A stretch of 64,000 bases of DNA, taken from NCBI GenBank assembly GCA_947450025.1, contig CANFTW010000001.1:124001-188000 (forward strand). Direction: 5' to 3'. Position numbers and translations under genes: made by a program. This document shows, one piece after another, positions 31,199 through 40,399 of the stretch (position 1 is the first letter of the stretch; each line of letters begins with the position of its first letter). The stretch comes from Bacteroidota bacterium. Lineage in GTDB: Bacteria; Bacteroidota; Bacteroidia; B-17B0; Aurantibacillaceae. The notes under the pieces were generated by a model, which saw only the letters and a program-made list of their open reading frames with translations, had not been told where the DNA came from and searched no databases.

Positions 31199-32443
31199 TT
31201 AATTTATTGTTCCAGCAGCTATCGTATTATTTGTATTTTCACTAATTAAAATAAAAGCTCCAGTGTTTCGATTATCAATATAACGATCAAAACAAATAGG
31301 CTCTGCTGTTTTTATTAAGACTTTACAAATATCATTTAATCTCATTGTTCCATCACTTTCTTTTTCTATTGATGAATGAATATCTATTTTACTAATCACT
31401 TCTTTAACAACCGCTTTCGTTCTAAAAGAATTTTGCTGAAAAAGTATTTTTTGACCTGGAACATAATTGGCACTATCCATCCAGCAAATAATAGCTATTA
31501 TTTCTTTTTCTATTTTTGGTAAATCTTCTGTAAGAACAATACTATTTCCACGACTTATATCTAAATCATCTTTAAAATGAAAAACAATTGGAGCGTTTGT
31601 TTCTGCAACATTAACTTCATGCTGATTCATTTCAATTTTATCTATGATCGTTTCAATTCCTGAAGGTAATACGGTAACTTTTTGTCCTTTTTTATAAGTC
31701 CCACTTAATACTTTTCCTGCAAAACCTCTATAATCGTGTAATGTATTTGTTTGAGGACGGATAATATATTGAACTTGAAAACGAGATTGGTTACTTAACT
31801 TTGGTTTATCAATTTCAATGATCTCCAAAAAATTTAATAGAGATTTTCCTTGATACCATAACATGTTTTTTGATTGACTTACAACATTATCTCCTTGCAA
31901 AGCACAAACGGGAATAAATGAAATATCATTAAGCTGTAATTGCCTCGAAAACTCCATATAATCATTTTCAATTTGCTTGTATTTCTCTTCAGAGTAATTT
32001 ATCAAATCCATTTTATTGATACAGATGACAACATGAGGTATTCTAAGTATCGATGCAATAATAGAATGCCGTTTAGTTTGATCGGTCAAACCATTTCTTG
32101 CATCTATTAAAATGAGTGCTAATTCAGCAGTAGAGGCTCCCGTAAACATGTTTCGAGTATATTCAAGATGACCAGGAGTATCGGCCACAATAAATTGACG
32201 GTTGCCAGTAGTAAAATATTTATAAGCAACGTCAATTGTAATACCTTGTGTTCTTTCTGCTCTTAATCCATCCGTTAATAAAGCTAAATCAATTTCGGTG
32301 TCACCTCCTTTTACTTTACTTTGCTTTGTTAATGTTTCAATAATGTCAGTTGAAATAGCATGACTATCATACAACAAACGACCAATCAGTGTACTCTTAC
32401 CATCATCTACATTTCCTGCTGTAAAAAATCTTAATAGTTGCAT
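31199..32443 (-). CDS. cysN: Sulfate adenylyltransferase subunit 1 (GTPase)
   Basis: 414 residues. GTPase motifs are intact: GNVDDGKSTLIGRLLYDS, DTPGHLEYTRNM and CINKMDL, followed by EF-Tu-like beta-barrel domains. With CysD it activates sulfate to APS. No APS kinase (CysC) domain is fused, so PAPS formation, if any, needs another gene. 3 bp downstream of cysD. Confidence 0.95.
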   Translation of the reverse strand: MQLLRFFTAGNVDDGKSTLIGRLLYDSHAISTDIIETLTKQSKVKGGDTEIDLALLTDGLRAERTQGITIDVAYKYFTTGNRQFIVADTPGHLEYTRNMFTGASTAELALILIDARNGLTDQTKRHSIIASILRIPHVVICINKMDLINYSEEKYKQIENDYMEFSRQLQLNDISFIPVCALQGDNVVSQSKNMLWYQGKSLLNFLEIIEIDKPKLSNQSRFQVQYIIRPQTNTLHDYRGFAGKVLSGTYKKGQKVTVLPSGIETIIDKIEMNQHEVNVAETNAPIVFHFKDDLDISRGNSIVLTEDLPKIEKEIIAIICWMDSANYVPGQKILFQQNSFRTKAVVKEVISKIDIHSSIEKESDGTMRLNDICKVLIKTAEPICFDRYIDNRNTGAFILISENTNNTIAAGTIN

Positions 32444-32446
32444 AAG

Positions 32447-33355
32447 CTAAAAATACCCTCCTTTCTTTCTATCCTCCATAGCCGCTTCGCTTATTCTATC
32501 GTCCATTCGGGTAGCGCCACGTTCACTAATTTTAGTTTCTAATAATTCTTTTATAATATCATCTACGGTGGAAGCTTTACTTTCTATTGCTGAAGTGCAA
32601 GTCATATCTCCTACTGTTCGATATCTGACATTTTTTTTAACAACGACATCATTTTCTTCACGCTGCACAAATTCATTCGTATTCATTAGCTGGCCATTTT
32701 CAGTTAAAATACACTCTCGAGAATGGGTAAAATAAATAGAAGGTAAATGAATGTTTTCTCTTTTGATATAATTCCAAACGTCTAATTCTGTCCAATTGCT
32801 GATTGGAAATACACGAACGTTTTCGCCTTTATTAATTTTACCGTTATAAATGTTCCATAATTCAGGGCGTTGCATCTTTGGATCCCATTGTCCAAATTCA
32901 TCTCGTACTGAAAAAATTCTTTCTTTAGCCCTAGCCTTTTCCTCATCTCTTCGAGCACCTCCTATACAAGCATCAAACTCAAACTCTTCAATCACATCTA
33001 GTAAGGTGTATGTTTGTAAAGGATTTCTGGTAGGAAATTTGCCTTTTCCATCTTGTAATTTCTTATTCAAAATTGTATCTGCTACATAACGAACAATTAA
33101 TTTTTCATCAATTTTCTTTACTAAATTATCTCTAAAAGAAATAGTTTCTTGGAAATTATGTCCAGTATCAATATGCACTAATGGAAACGGAAATTTACTT
33201 GGGCGAAATGCTTTCAAAGCTAAATGCACTAAACAAATACTATCTTTTCCACCACTAAACAACAAGGCTGGTCTTTCAAACTGACCCGCTACCTCTCTCA
33301 GAATATATATGGCTTCTGATTCTAATTCATCAAGGTAATCTAGTGGTTTACTCAT
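32447..33355 (-). CDS. cysD: Sulfate adenylyltransferase subunit 2
   Basis: 302 residues, full length. PALLFSGGKDSICLVHLALKAF is the PP-loop; GGARRDEEKARAKERIFSVRDEFGQWDPKMQRPELWNIYNG is a strong CysD signature, and the C-terminus ERGATRMDDRISEAAMEDRKKGGYF is conserved. ATP sulfurylase catalytic subunit. Between the MetZ-like gene and cysN, with gaps of 2-3 bp. Confidence 0.97.
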   Translation of the reverse strand: MSKPLDYLDELESEAIYILREVAGQFERPALLFSGGKDSICLVHLALKAFRPSKFPFPLVHIDTGHNFQETISFRDNLVKKIDEKLIVRYVADTILNKKLQDGKGKFPTRNPLQTYTLLDVIEEFEFDACIGGARRDEEKARAKERIFSVRDEFGQWDPKMQRPELWNIYNGKINKGENVRVFPISNWTELDVWNYIKRENIHLPSIYFTHSRECILTENGQLMNTNEFVQREENDVVVKKNVRYRTVGDMTCTSAIESKASTVDDIIKELLETKISERGATRMDDRISEAAMEDRKKGGYF

Positions 33356-35889: not shown

Positions 35890-37140
35890 TTAATAACTAA
35901 CTAATTCTTTTTTGAATACTGTTTTCTTTGATTCTTCCTTTGCTAAACTTACTTTTTCATCAACTAATGAAATAAATAAGTTGTTTTTTAAAATATAATC
36001 ACGGTTTGCGATCAGGTGAGTTAGATTTACCTTGCCAACAACATAGTGATAGTCCTTACTTGTATATTTTTCTGAAATTTCATCAAATATAATTTGCTTT
36101 AAATCATCATTATTATTGTATCTAAAATACGCTTCAATAACTACATCATTAGTAAATGTCGGAGCATGTTTTTGAGCATATTTTTTAAACTCGTATTTAT
36201 ATCCATGAGATAAGGCTGAAATATCTGATAACACGGCTGCACCAGTTGGATAAGACCCAGCGCCTCTTCCTTGTAAGAACTGTTCTCCAGAGAACTTACC
36301 CTCTACAATCACTCCATTAAACTCATTATCGACGTTATACAAATGATTGTGTTCTTTAATAAATCGAGGTGCAACAAATACGCTTACTTTATCATCATCT
36401 AAACGTTGAATAATGGGGGTCAATTTAATCTTATAACCTTTTTCGGAAGCATATTTTATATCATTTTCATGCAAAGTTGTAATACCAATATTCAAAACTT
36501 CTTCTTGTTTTATAATTAAGCCAAAAGCATGCAAAGCTATAATCACTGCTTTAAACTTCGCATCAAAACCTTCTACATCATTAGTAGGATCTGACTCGGC
36601 AAAACCTTTATCTTGAGCTTGTTTAAGAGCATTTGCATACGATAATTTTTCGGCAATTGTTTTTGTTAAAATATAGTTAGTTGTTCCATTAAAAATACCC
36701 GACACTTTTTCTAATTCTTCATTATCAAAATATTCTTCTAAAGAACGAATGATTGGAATACTTCCACAAGCAGATGCTTCATATAATAACGATACATTAT
36801 TTTCTTGTTGCAAACGATACAACTCTTCTAAATGAGTAGCCAATAATTTTTTATTAGCCGTTACAACATGTTTCCCTTTTTTTAATGCTTCACTTACTAT
36901 ATGAAATGCTTCTTCTGCATCATCAATTAATTCAACTACCACATCAATTTCAGGGTTATTTAAAATTTCCCATTTATCATATGTAATTAATTCTTTACCT
37001 ACGATACGAGGTTTAGTTTTGTTTTTTACTGCAATCTTGGCAATATCAGCTTTAAAACCCGTACTATTATTTAAAACGTGATAAAGTCCTTGTCCAACGC
37101 ATCCAAATCCAAATAATCCTATTTTTAATTTTTTGCTCAT
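35890..37140 (-). CDS. hom: Homoserine dehydrogenase
   Basis: 416 residues. IGLFGFGCVGQGLYHVL is the NAD(P) site, VTANKKLLATH and GIFNGTTNYILTK are catalytic-domain signatures, and AESDPTNDVEGFDAKFKAVIIALHAFG carries the active-site acidic cluster. The C-terminal part lacks a recognisable ACT motif. Converts aspartate semialdehyde to homoserine, the precursor used by MetX next door. 3 bp after metX. Confidence 0.95.
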   Translation of the reverse strand: MSKKLKIGLFGFGCVGQGLYHVLNNSTGFKADIAKIAVKNKTKPRIVGKELITYDKWEILNNPEIDVVVELIDDAEEAFHIVSEALKKGKHVVTANKKLLATHLEELYRLQQENNVSLLYEASACGSIPIIRSLEEYFDNEELEKVSGIFNGTTNYILTKTIAEKLSYANALKQAQDKGFAESDPTNDVEGFDAKFKAVIIALHAFGLIIKQEEVLNIGITTLHENDIKYASEKGYKIKLTPIIQRLDDDKVSVFVAPRFIKEHNHLYNVDNEFNGVIVEGKFSGEQFLQGRGAGSYPTGAAVLSDISALSHGYKYEFKKYAQKHAPTFTNDVVIEAYFRYNNNDDLKQIIFDEISEKYTSKDYHYVVGKVNLTHLIANRDYILKNNLFISLVDEKVSLAKEESKKTVFKKELVSY

Positions 37141-37143
37141 AAT

Positions 37144-38238
37144 TTATATGTTTACTGTATATGTTTTTACTTTTATTGTTTGATAAAAATGTTTGATATG
37201 ATCTGTTAACTGTTTGGTTTCAATCAAGAATCCATCATGACCATATAATGAATCAATCTCCTTATAAATAGCAGTTTTTATTCCTTTTGCTAATAATTGT
37301 TGCTCATTTACTGGAAACAAAACATCAGAAGTAACCGCAATTACTAAAGTTGGAATTTCAATTTCATTTAAAACTGTTTCCATACTATAAGCTCTTTCTC
37401 TTGCTAAATTATGAGAATCCATTGCCTCTGATAAACGTACATATGAATACGCATTAAATCGTTTAACTAATTTCTCCCCCTGATATCTTTGATAGGAAGA
37501 TGCAGCATGATTATGAATATTATTGTTTCCAGTATTTTTTTGAGTACTGTTATATGTATCATAATTTCTATAACTTAATAAGGCAATGCTTCGTGCAGCT
37601 TGAAGCCCTTTTTCTCCTCCATTTGTTGTATTTCCAAAATATGTTCTATCCGCTTTAATAGCCAATCGTTGCGATTCATTAAAGGCTATTCCCCAAGGAG
37701 AATGCTGAGCATTAGTTGCTATTAATATTATATTCTCTGTCACTTCAGGATGTTGCAAAACCCATTCTTGTGCAATTTGTCCACCTTGAGAGCCACCTAT
37801 TAAAGTATGAATCTTAACAATACCTAAATGATTTTTTAAAACTTGAAGAGTATTAGCCATATCCCTTATGGTGATTTGTGGAAAATAACTGAACCAAGGC
37901 TCATTTGTATCTATATTGATAGATAAAGGACCTGTAGTTCCATAACATGACCCTAAATTATTTGCACATATTATAAAATAATCTTTCGGATTATATAAAT
38001 CATTTTCTCCAAATAATCCTGGCCACCATTCAAAGACGTCACTATTAGCTGTTAAAGCATGCGATACCCAAATGACATTACTCTTATCGGCGTTTAACGT
38101 TCCATAGGTATGGTATGCAATTTCTAATTGAGGTAATGACAAACCACTATCTAACTGAAATCTTTTTTTATAAAGGAATGTATGATTCATAGATTTTATT
38201 TTAACTCCTCTCAAATGATGAGAGGAGTTTACTTTCAA
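37144..38238 (-). CDS. metX: Homoserine O-acetyltransferase
   Basis: 364 residues, alpha/beta hydrolase fold of the MetX type. VSHALTANSDVFEWWPGLFG, TLIGGSQGGQIAQEWVLQHP with the nucleophilic Ser, VIAVTSDVLFP with the Asp and LYGHDGFLIET with the His form the triad. Makes O-acetylhomoserine for MetY. Located 1 bp after metY. Confidence 0.96.
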   Translation of the reverse strand: MKVNSSHHLRGVKIKSMNHTFLYKKRFQLDSGLSLPQLEIAYHTYGTLNADKSNVIWVSHALTANSDVFEWWPGLFGENDLYNPKDYFIICANNLGSCYGTTGPLSINIDTNEPWFSYFPQITIRDMANTLQVLKNHLGIVKIHTLIGGSQGGQIAQEWVLQHPEVTENIILIATNAQHSPWGIAFNESQRLAIKADRTYFGNTTNGGEKGLQAARSIALLSYRNYDTYNSTQKNTGNNNIHNHAASSYQRYQGEKLVKRFNAYSYVRLSEAMDSHNLARERAYSMETVLNEIEIPTLVIAVTSDVLFPVNEQQLLAKGIKTAIYKEIDSLYGHDGFLIETKQLTDHIKHFYQTIKVKTYTVNI

Positions 38239-38239
38239 T

Positions 38240-39619
<1,380 letters not shown>

Positions 39620-39941: not shown

Positions 39942-40035
39942 GATATTTATTTTTGAAATTTTTGAAATAATACATTGAGAATAATTGTGCTTCTTAGAAA
40001 AAAGAATACAACAAAGTGACCTCGGACTTACCAAG

Positions 40036-40071
40036 ATTAATTTTTCGGGAAGATTAAATCGAAAAAATTAG
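40036..40071 (-). promoter_or_regulatory. Hairpin directly after the Cys/Met leader peptide
   Basis: On the minus strand, CTAATTTTTTCG pairs with CGAAAAATTAAT (one bulged base, 12-nt loop). It begins 1 nt after the leader peptide's stop codon, so a ribosome stalled in the Cys run would cover part of its 5' arm. No T tract follows. Confidence 0.55.
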
Positions 40072-40072
40072 C

Positions 40073-40192
40073 TTAGCACATGCAACAACAGCAGCACATA
40101 CAAGCCATCATGAAAAAAGGAGTAATAGAATTAAGAGTTACATTAAAGTAGCTTCGTTTTGATTGATTTTTTTTTGATGCCGTGTGTTTCAT
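40073..40192 (-). CDS. Cys/Met-run leader peptide, 39 aa (candidate attenuator)
   Basis: ATG (40192-40190) to TAA (40075-40073) encodes 39 residues: a basic N-terminal half (MKHTASKKNQSKRSYF), then ITPFFM and the tail MACMCCCCCMC. Seven of the last nine codons are Cys and two are Met. The start codon is 11 nt past the 3' strand of riboswitch stem P1. The run of exactly the amino acids made by the operon is the classic mark of a ribosome-stalling attenuator; poly-Cys uORFs of similar logic are known upstream of sulfur genes in mycobacteria. The alternative, a Cys-rich metal-binding peptide, fits the position less well. Confidence 0.8.
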   Translation of the reverse strand: MKHTASKKNQSKRSYFNVTLNSITPFFMMACMCCCCCMC

Positions 40193-40203
40193 TTTTCTAT
40201 TTT

Positions 40204-40335
40204 TTAATTTATTTTCCTCCGTTTTTCATCGGAGTAGGAGTTGGCACCGGTTTTCCAATTTCGTTTTACCGAAACTTTTAGTTGGTTGCCAGTGGGTCAA
40301 TGAGCCTATTCTCTCGCCACTTCTTAATAAATTAA
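40204..40335 (-). promoter_or_regulatory. SAM-I riboswitch (S-box)
   Basis: All helices can be read on the minus strand. P1: TTAATTTATT (40335-40326) with AATAAATTAA (40213-40204), 10 bp. P2: AGTGG with CCACT, with TTGACC at the kink-turn region. P3: GGCAACC opposite GGTGCC. The conserved GGTGCCAACTCCTAC follows. P4: CTCCG-loop-CGGAG. It precedes metY as expected for S-box control. No T-run terminator follows P1, and the next start codon belongs to the leader peptide 11 nt away, so translational control of that peptide is likely. Confidence 0.94.
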
Positions 40336-40366
40336 TTACACACAAAAGAGGTAACTAATTCTGATG

Positions 40367-40399
40367 CAAATTTAAGACAATATTTTTCATACTTCCAAA
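40367..40399 (-). promoter_or_regulatory. Promoter of the sulfur-amino-acid operon
   Basis: Minus-strand TAAATTTG (40374-40367) matches the -7 consensus TAnnTTTG. TTTG (40399-40396) lies 21 bp upstream as a -33 element. Transcription would begin about 25 nt before riboswitch stem P1. Confidence 0.6.

Follow-up and report, generated by a model that had tools for sequence, protein, structure and literature searches.

A riboswitch detects a metabolite directly; a leader peptide serves as a sensor of charged tRNA. Bacteroidota ribosomes mostly ignore Shine-Dalgarno sequences, and leader regulation in this phylum has been little studied. The closest published combinations are the ppe2 B12 riboswitch with its uORF (PMC11260477) and the tandem attenuators of mgtCBR (PMC3641672). 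The M. tuberculosis ppe2 element resembles the one reported here in being an OFF riboswitch at the level of translation that acts first on a short uORF (uPPE2), itself needed for downstream expression; however, uPPE2 is coupled to downstream translation by stop-start overlap and not by codon-run sensing, and the ligand is B12. The Salmonella mgtCBR leader, with tandem mgtM and mgtP, likewise contains two serial sensors, one of them an amino-acid codon-rich ORF, but ATP and proline are sensed there by two ORFs, whereas here a metabolite riboswitch is followed by an ORF. Ribosome-mediated attenuation with tandem Cys codons is also known from uORFC-8-2 in Rhodobacterales (PMC8632094), which differs in having two Cys codons, an intrinsic terminator, no riboswitch and cysS, the gene that it precedes, as its target.

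Poly-Cys leaders have been described for mycobacterial and actinobacterial cys operons (PMC1262725; Canestrari 2020, via PMC13236596). They share with the present leader a Cys run by the stop codon and sulfur genes downstream; no intrinsic terminator was found for them, and Rho was proposed to act instead (PMC1262725). As far as these reports were consulted, they describe no riboswitch ahead of these leaders, whereas the Bacteroidota leader has a SAM-I aptamer ahead of it and belongs to a different phylum. With SAM-I (S-box) riboswitches of RF00162, our element shares the Rfam model match, met genes downstream and a P1 that is the ligand-closed helix. Unlike in the usual SAM-I, P1 in this family runs straight into the start of a leader ORF, without a terminator or gene start, and the predicted sequestering strand is located 5' of the aptamer. 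Thus, SAM-I and poly-Cys leaders are each known, and their pairing seems new: the literature searched (mostly without subscription journals) yielded no publication in which a SAM riboswitch is combined with a leader peptide carrying an amino-acid run, which agrees with the statement in a preliminary description of this DNA that no such system was known to it.

The window (the whole 64-kb stretch of DNA analyzed) contained a single RNA in an Rfam scan, RF00162 at 40333-40206 of the minus strand. The features of the locus are as follows.

40367..40399, minus strand: promoter of the Bacteroidota type, recognized from sequence, with TTTG at 40399-40396, a 21-nt spacer and the -7 box TAAATTTG at 40374-40367
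40335-40326 (5' strand) and 40213-40204 (3' strand), minus strand: extended P1, 10-bp form
40206..40333, minus strand: SAM-I aptamer, subtype with an all-A/U P1 (cmscan RF00162, 69.6 bits)
40073..40192, minus strand: leader peptide ORF of 39 codons, MKHTASKKNQSKRSYFNVTLNSITPFFMMACMCCCCCMC (ORF reading; conserved in 45/48 type-1 loci, defined below)
40073..40102, minus strand: Cys/Met control codons and stop, TGT ATG TGC TGC TGT TGT TGC ATG TGC TAA
39705..39941, minus strand: conserved small protein of 78 aa, with no Cys and with the start as its sole Met
38240..39586, minus strand: metY, O-acetylhomoserine sulfhydrylase (TIGR01326, 668 bits, above cut-off)
37144..38238, minus strand: metX-like homoserine O-acetyltransferase (TIGR01392, 337 bits, and PRK00175, 319 bits, each below the curated cut-off)
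35890..37140, minus strand: hom, homoserine dehydrogenase (PRK06349, 350.6 bits, above cut-off)
31199..33355, minus strand: cysD and cysN, predicted sulfate adenylyltransferase subunits, closing the gene string (named from sequence and known families)

The aptamer had been called complete, and its match indeed spans the full model (1-108) at a score well above the gathering score of 44.4. Both parts of the conserved core, GGCAACC and GGUGCCAA, are present, and the aptamer is predicted to bind SAM. The 39-codon ORF ends in FFMMACMCCCCCMC with TAA (40075-40073) directly after, exactly as had been read. The distance of 11 nt claimed between P1 and the ATG holds for the 10-bp extended P1; counted from the Rfam boundary, the distance is 13 nt. 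It had also been stated that the next genes make homocysteine and APS. The gene order past the leader, all on the minus strand, is 78-aa protein, metY, metX, hom, aldo-keto reductase, osmC, OSHS-like, cysD and cysN; the immediately adjacent gene is that of the small protein, not metY. The small protein matched neither Pfam nor NCBIfam, and a comparable small ORF of 68-81 aa lies between the leader and the met genes in most family members (e.g., L022, L029 and L037). Judging from the position of the promoter, the transcript is predicted to start at ~40360.

Several products of this gene string are poor in sulfur amino acids. MetY has no Cys and 2 Met in 448 aa, and Hom, with a length of 416 aa, has 2 Cys and a single Met. 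Among window ORFs of at least 200 aa, the four lowest contents of Cys plus Met were those of MetY (0.45%), Hom (0.72%), the aldo-keto reductase (1.32%) and MetX (1.72%), compared to a mean of 3.42% for such ORFs outside the met gene string. The low content in the head enzymes of the operon fits their use under sulfur shortage. The genome of the window contains a second SAM-I (G000:C1:85603), which is located before metH and has no leader.

Occurrence of the leader was assessed by scanning 60 relatives and then GTDB contigs carrying the P1/P2 signature of the window's aptamer. The signature search yielded 47 loci, all from uncultured Bacteroidota, and the combined set comprised 48 distinct aptamers, designated type 1; the family as a whole is uncultured. 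A short ORF with a Cys/Met tail was found behind 45 of the 48 aptamers, although these loci are related by descent and the counts are not independent events. The three loci without a proper leader were L034 (degenerate tail), L039 (an orphan copy) and L079 (masked by N). Under a strict test, which required an ATG shortly after P1, a length of 20-70 aa and 4 or more Cys among the final 14 residues, 41 of 47 aptamers of the subtype had such an ORF; dinucleotide shuffles gave an expectation of 0.015. A leader ending in MCCCCCCC also follows a divergent aptamer, L013. The genetic context is conserved as well: metX, with or without metY, was downstream in 47 of the 48 type-1 loci, and a matching promoter pattern was present ~27-37 nt 5' of the aptamer in 44/48 (0.8 expected). 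These data confirm that the pairing of SAM-I with a Cys-tail ORF in the window is real and conserved across the family. The serial control by SAM-I and a Cys-run leader that had been suggested for this locus is therefore supported at the sequence level, and the conservation of ORF and tail behind homologous riboswitches, which the preliminary description had named as a check, is evident in these 45 loci.

Conservation is concentrated in the tail. Over the 45 leaders, the last 12 residues contained on average 6.4 Cys and 2.7 Met, and only 7 Cys occurred in the 1228 residues outside the tail. Met was the next-to-last residue in 36 of the 45. Tail Cys codons were mixed (148 TGC and 141 TGT), implying selection on the amino acid and not on DNA. 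The leader peptide had no NCBIfam match and only a sub-threshold match in Pfam. One may ask whether the ORF encodes a functional Cys-rich small protein, involved in metal or redox binding and merely co-regulated by SAM with the met operon. Cys-rich tails can bind metals, which would suit such a role, and the ORF is strictly first in the operon. However, the N-terminus drifts freely and length varies from 29 to 64 aa, with only the run at the stop retained; the last codon and the stop are engaged in RNA pairing; the orphan copy has shrunk to MKHVF-stop; and in a second family, described below, ORFs before metY, metX and a cysH-like gene carry a similar Cys run, although their N-termini are unrelated. 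We consider this explanation very improbable.

Additional observations were made during these scans. L039 (genome G020) is a third SAM-I of the same subtype, located before a chitinase-like gene, with its leader cut to five residues; it is a natural copy under relaxed selection. Compared to its close relative L043, locus L044 carries a 42-nt GC-rich in-frame insertion in the leader ORF (VSIAIASQASRHTF region) with the Cys tail intact, and this insertion looks like a small repeat element. Type-2 aptamers in L002-L051, comprising the copies before metH in this family and SAM-I from other families, were in no case followed by a Cys-tail ORF in a scan that ignored start codons. The poly-Cys DNA pattern was also followed across the class; among the minority of listed matches whose flanking DNA was read, most of those outside the window's family lay within or opposite longer frames, as expected of chance.

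Based on the sequences, we propose as the probable mechanism a two-stage sulfur sensor in one 5' leader, in which SAM-I would gate the Cys-run leader peptide. At low SAM, the 5' end of the transcript would form its own hairpin, P1 would stay open and ribosomes would initiate at the leader. Upon SAM binding, P1 would close and the freed 5' segment could pair with the first codons of the leader (helix P0), thereby blocking leader translation; in other genera, the freed segment would instead pair with bases just before the leader AUG. The riboswitch thus appears to decide whether the tRNA sensor gets read at all. The elements of this first stage are the following.

40330..40360, minus strand: 5' hairpin (anti-P1), arm AAUUAGUUAC at 40360-40351 with GUAAUUAAUU at 40339-40330 (fold z-score)
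40338..40345, minus strand: P0 5' strand UUGUGUGU (MFE fold; its partner is leader codons 2-5 when P1 is closed)
40180..40187, minus strand: P0 3' strand ACACACGG, within leader codons 2-5 (Lys-His-Thr-Ala)

The second arm of the 5' hairpin overlaps the P1 5' strand, and this hairpin is the expected SAM-free form. Its fold z-score averaged -4.1 over 44 loci and was below -1 in 43 of them. P0 pairing was found with different sequences in other loci, e.g., GUGCGUUUU with AAAACGCAC in L063 and GUGUAGUU with AACUACAC in L093. The 5' segments of L084, L086, L046, L081, L031 and L045 pair immediately 5' of the leader AUG (such as CGUAAUU with AAUUACG). Shuffles of the leader start within each locus gave p < 0.05 in only 8 of 44 loci, a weak comparison since the shuffle keeps AC dinucleotides, and were replaced by a test of matched versus swapped partners. 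Matched P0 partners outscored swapped ones, and the observed sum was reached in 6 of 20,000 permutations, a value that covers 37 distinct combinations and is inflated by shared ancestry. The covariation of P0 corresponds to what is expected of a translational riboswitch, namely that the leader start is masked by an alternative helix once the ligand has closed P1; the pairing is weaker in genus g8, where P0 is down to 4 bp in several members. That SAM closes P1 and blocks translation of the leader had been deduced earlier from proximity only, and the covarying P0 pairing now speaks for such a step.

Spacing and the mode of initiation are relevant here. The gap between the P1 3' strand and the AUG measures 11-15 nt in 39 of 45 loci, too short to hold a terminator. 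Initiation in Bacteroidota is hindered by structure around -20 to +20, and in Flavobacterium it depends on structure and on adenines upstream of the start (PMC6847099); given such structure-sensitive initiation, P0 pairing should matter. A different explanation is that the two elements are independent, i.e., a conventional SAM-I control and a separate, adjacent Cys-run attenuator, with no gating of the leader by SAM. The unpaired probability averaged around the leader AUG did not distinguish real 5' segments from shuffled ones (22 of 44 loci) and so did not discriminate in favor of gating. In the second family, a separate leader stands behind a SAM-I equipped with an intrinsic terminator, so that two independent stages are workable. 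In the window's family, however, the narrow spacing between P1 and AUG offers no space for a conventional platform, and there is covariation between the 5' segment and the start of the leader. We therefore regard independence of the two elements as unlikely for this family, and gating by SAM-I is retained below.

The second stage would begin once the leader is translated and the ribosome meets the Cys/Met codons. Three putative attenuator arms were identified around and past the leader end.

40060..40078, minus strand: arm 1, UGCUAAGCUAAUUUUUUCG, comprising the last Cys codon, the stop and the next bases (folds with arm 2)
40029..40047, minus strand: arm 2, CGAAAAAUUAAUCUUGGUA (1:2 pairs conserved)
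40019..40025, minus strand: arm 3, CCGAGGU, which pairs with AUCUUGG (40037-40031) of arm 2 and excludes 1:2

When charged tRNA-Cys is scarce (perhaps tRNA-Met too), the ribosome would linger at the leader end and cover arm 1, and the resulting 2:3 helix is taken as the ON form. If the leader is untranslated, or the ribosome has finished and gone, 1:2 would form and the operon would be OFF. This assignment follows from the first stage: for a block on leader translation to act as repression, OFF has to be the form without translation, 1:2. The operon would then be fully on only if SAM is low and cysteinyl-tRNA is short, and the logic may be that of an AND gate rather than of two equal repressors. 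Sensing of Met via the conserved Met codons of the tail is possible. In such an arrangement, a compact gate with two inputs, made by nature, would connect cysteine supply with SAM, the end of the methionine pathway.

In the window, the 1:2 helix consists of UGCUAAG (40078-40072) with CUUGGUA (40035-40029), lengthened by an A/U stem. Among 17 close relatives, 1:2 pairs were formed in 91% of cells, versus 32-72% for slid controls; covariation of these pairs is weak alone, with 27 to 195 of 500 shuffles reaching the observed values. When the first 18 nt were blocked in the folding, to mimic a ribosome at the leader end, many members switched between 1:2 and 2:3 relative to the unblocked fold. Competing 1:2 and 2:3 helices were present in 20 of 45 loci, compared to 1.7 expected, and the strict form was missing in the other 25; they also occurred in the distant loci L038, L045, L046, L060, L078 and L084 despite changed sequences. 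What the sequences show is a conserved ORF with its tail, a covarying P0, the 5' hairpin and competing hairpins; leader translation, ribosome stalling, the directions of both switches and the output step are what we infer.

Geometry bears on the direction of the second switch. If stalling occurs at the first Cys codons, arm 1 is left uncovered, so that the ON/OFF assignment depends on late stalling in the run. The logic could in principle be the opposite, with a ribosome at the stop (Cys sufficient) giving 2:3 and ON, and with stalling or no translation giving 1:2 and OFF. The same geometry suits this version, as arm 1 is completely covered once the ribosome has reached the stop and stays free in a first-Cys stall; moreover, in genus g5 (L031 and L045), a terminator-like hairpin downstream involves arm 3, and 2:3 would thus be ON. 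Such wiring, however, would shut off cysD and cysN, which lie in the same gene string, exactly under Cys shortage, and the low Cys and Met content of the first enzymes argues for their use under sulfur shortage. The opposite logic is accordingly judged quite improbable, and stalling late in the run with 2:3 as ON is preferred.

As to the output, an intrinsic terminator after the leader was detected in 11 of 45 loci (7.3 expected), which is no enrichment, and classical trp-type attenuation by a hairpin with a U-tract was rejected on this basis; terminator-like hairpins occurred only in single genera, such as that of L031 and L045. A translational attenuator acting by sequestration of the next start codon was also rejected, as accessibility of the next gene start was the same with the leader end free (0.69) or blocked (0.68) over 45 loci. 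Our guess is that the output might be Rho-dependent termination, adopted as the likeliest step because the actinobacterial poly-Cys leaders also lack terminators and Rho was proposed there.

A phylum-wide search sampled 69 SAM-I loci and revealed a convincing poly-Cys ORF in one of them, L154. Its family (f36) was then sampled with 90 loci. SAM-I is usually followed there by an intrinsic terminator. A Cys-run ORF was then present before metY in 12 of 20 cases and before metX in 1 of 4 (13/24 together), and none of 60 loci with hom, trans-sulfuration-like or metH genes downstream had one (Fisher p 4e-9 for metY/metX versus other genes; 0.0 expected from shuffles). The order aptamer, terminator, leader, metY was observed in L154, L210, L216, L222, L250, L259, L262, L263 and L275.

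Judging from these sequences, the pairing of SAM-I with poly-Cys leaders would be either old or the product of two separate origins, and the presence of two architectures in two families allows a comparison of how it arose. We lean towards the view that both represent a recurrent design in Bacteroidia, in which SAM-I gates or precedes a poly-Cys/Met leader, so that sulfur incorporation is placed under an AND gate requiring low SAM together with a shortage of cysteinyl-tRNA. This design would exist in two forms: in one, SAM blocks leader translation via a strand 5' of the aptamer, and in the other, SAM terminates transcription first and the leader acts downstream.

SAM-I with a Cys-run ORF was also found elsewhere in f36, before a gene with a PAPS-reductase domain (L285; PF01507, 4e-36), a secreted protein (L247) and a receptor-like protein with a carboxypeptidase-regulatory domain (L280). 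These targets may mark sulfur-uptake genes.
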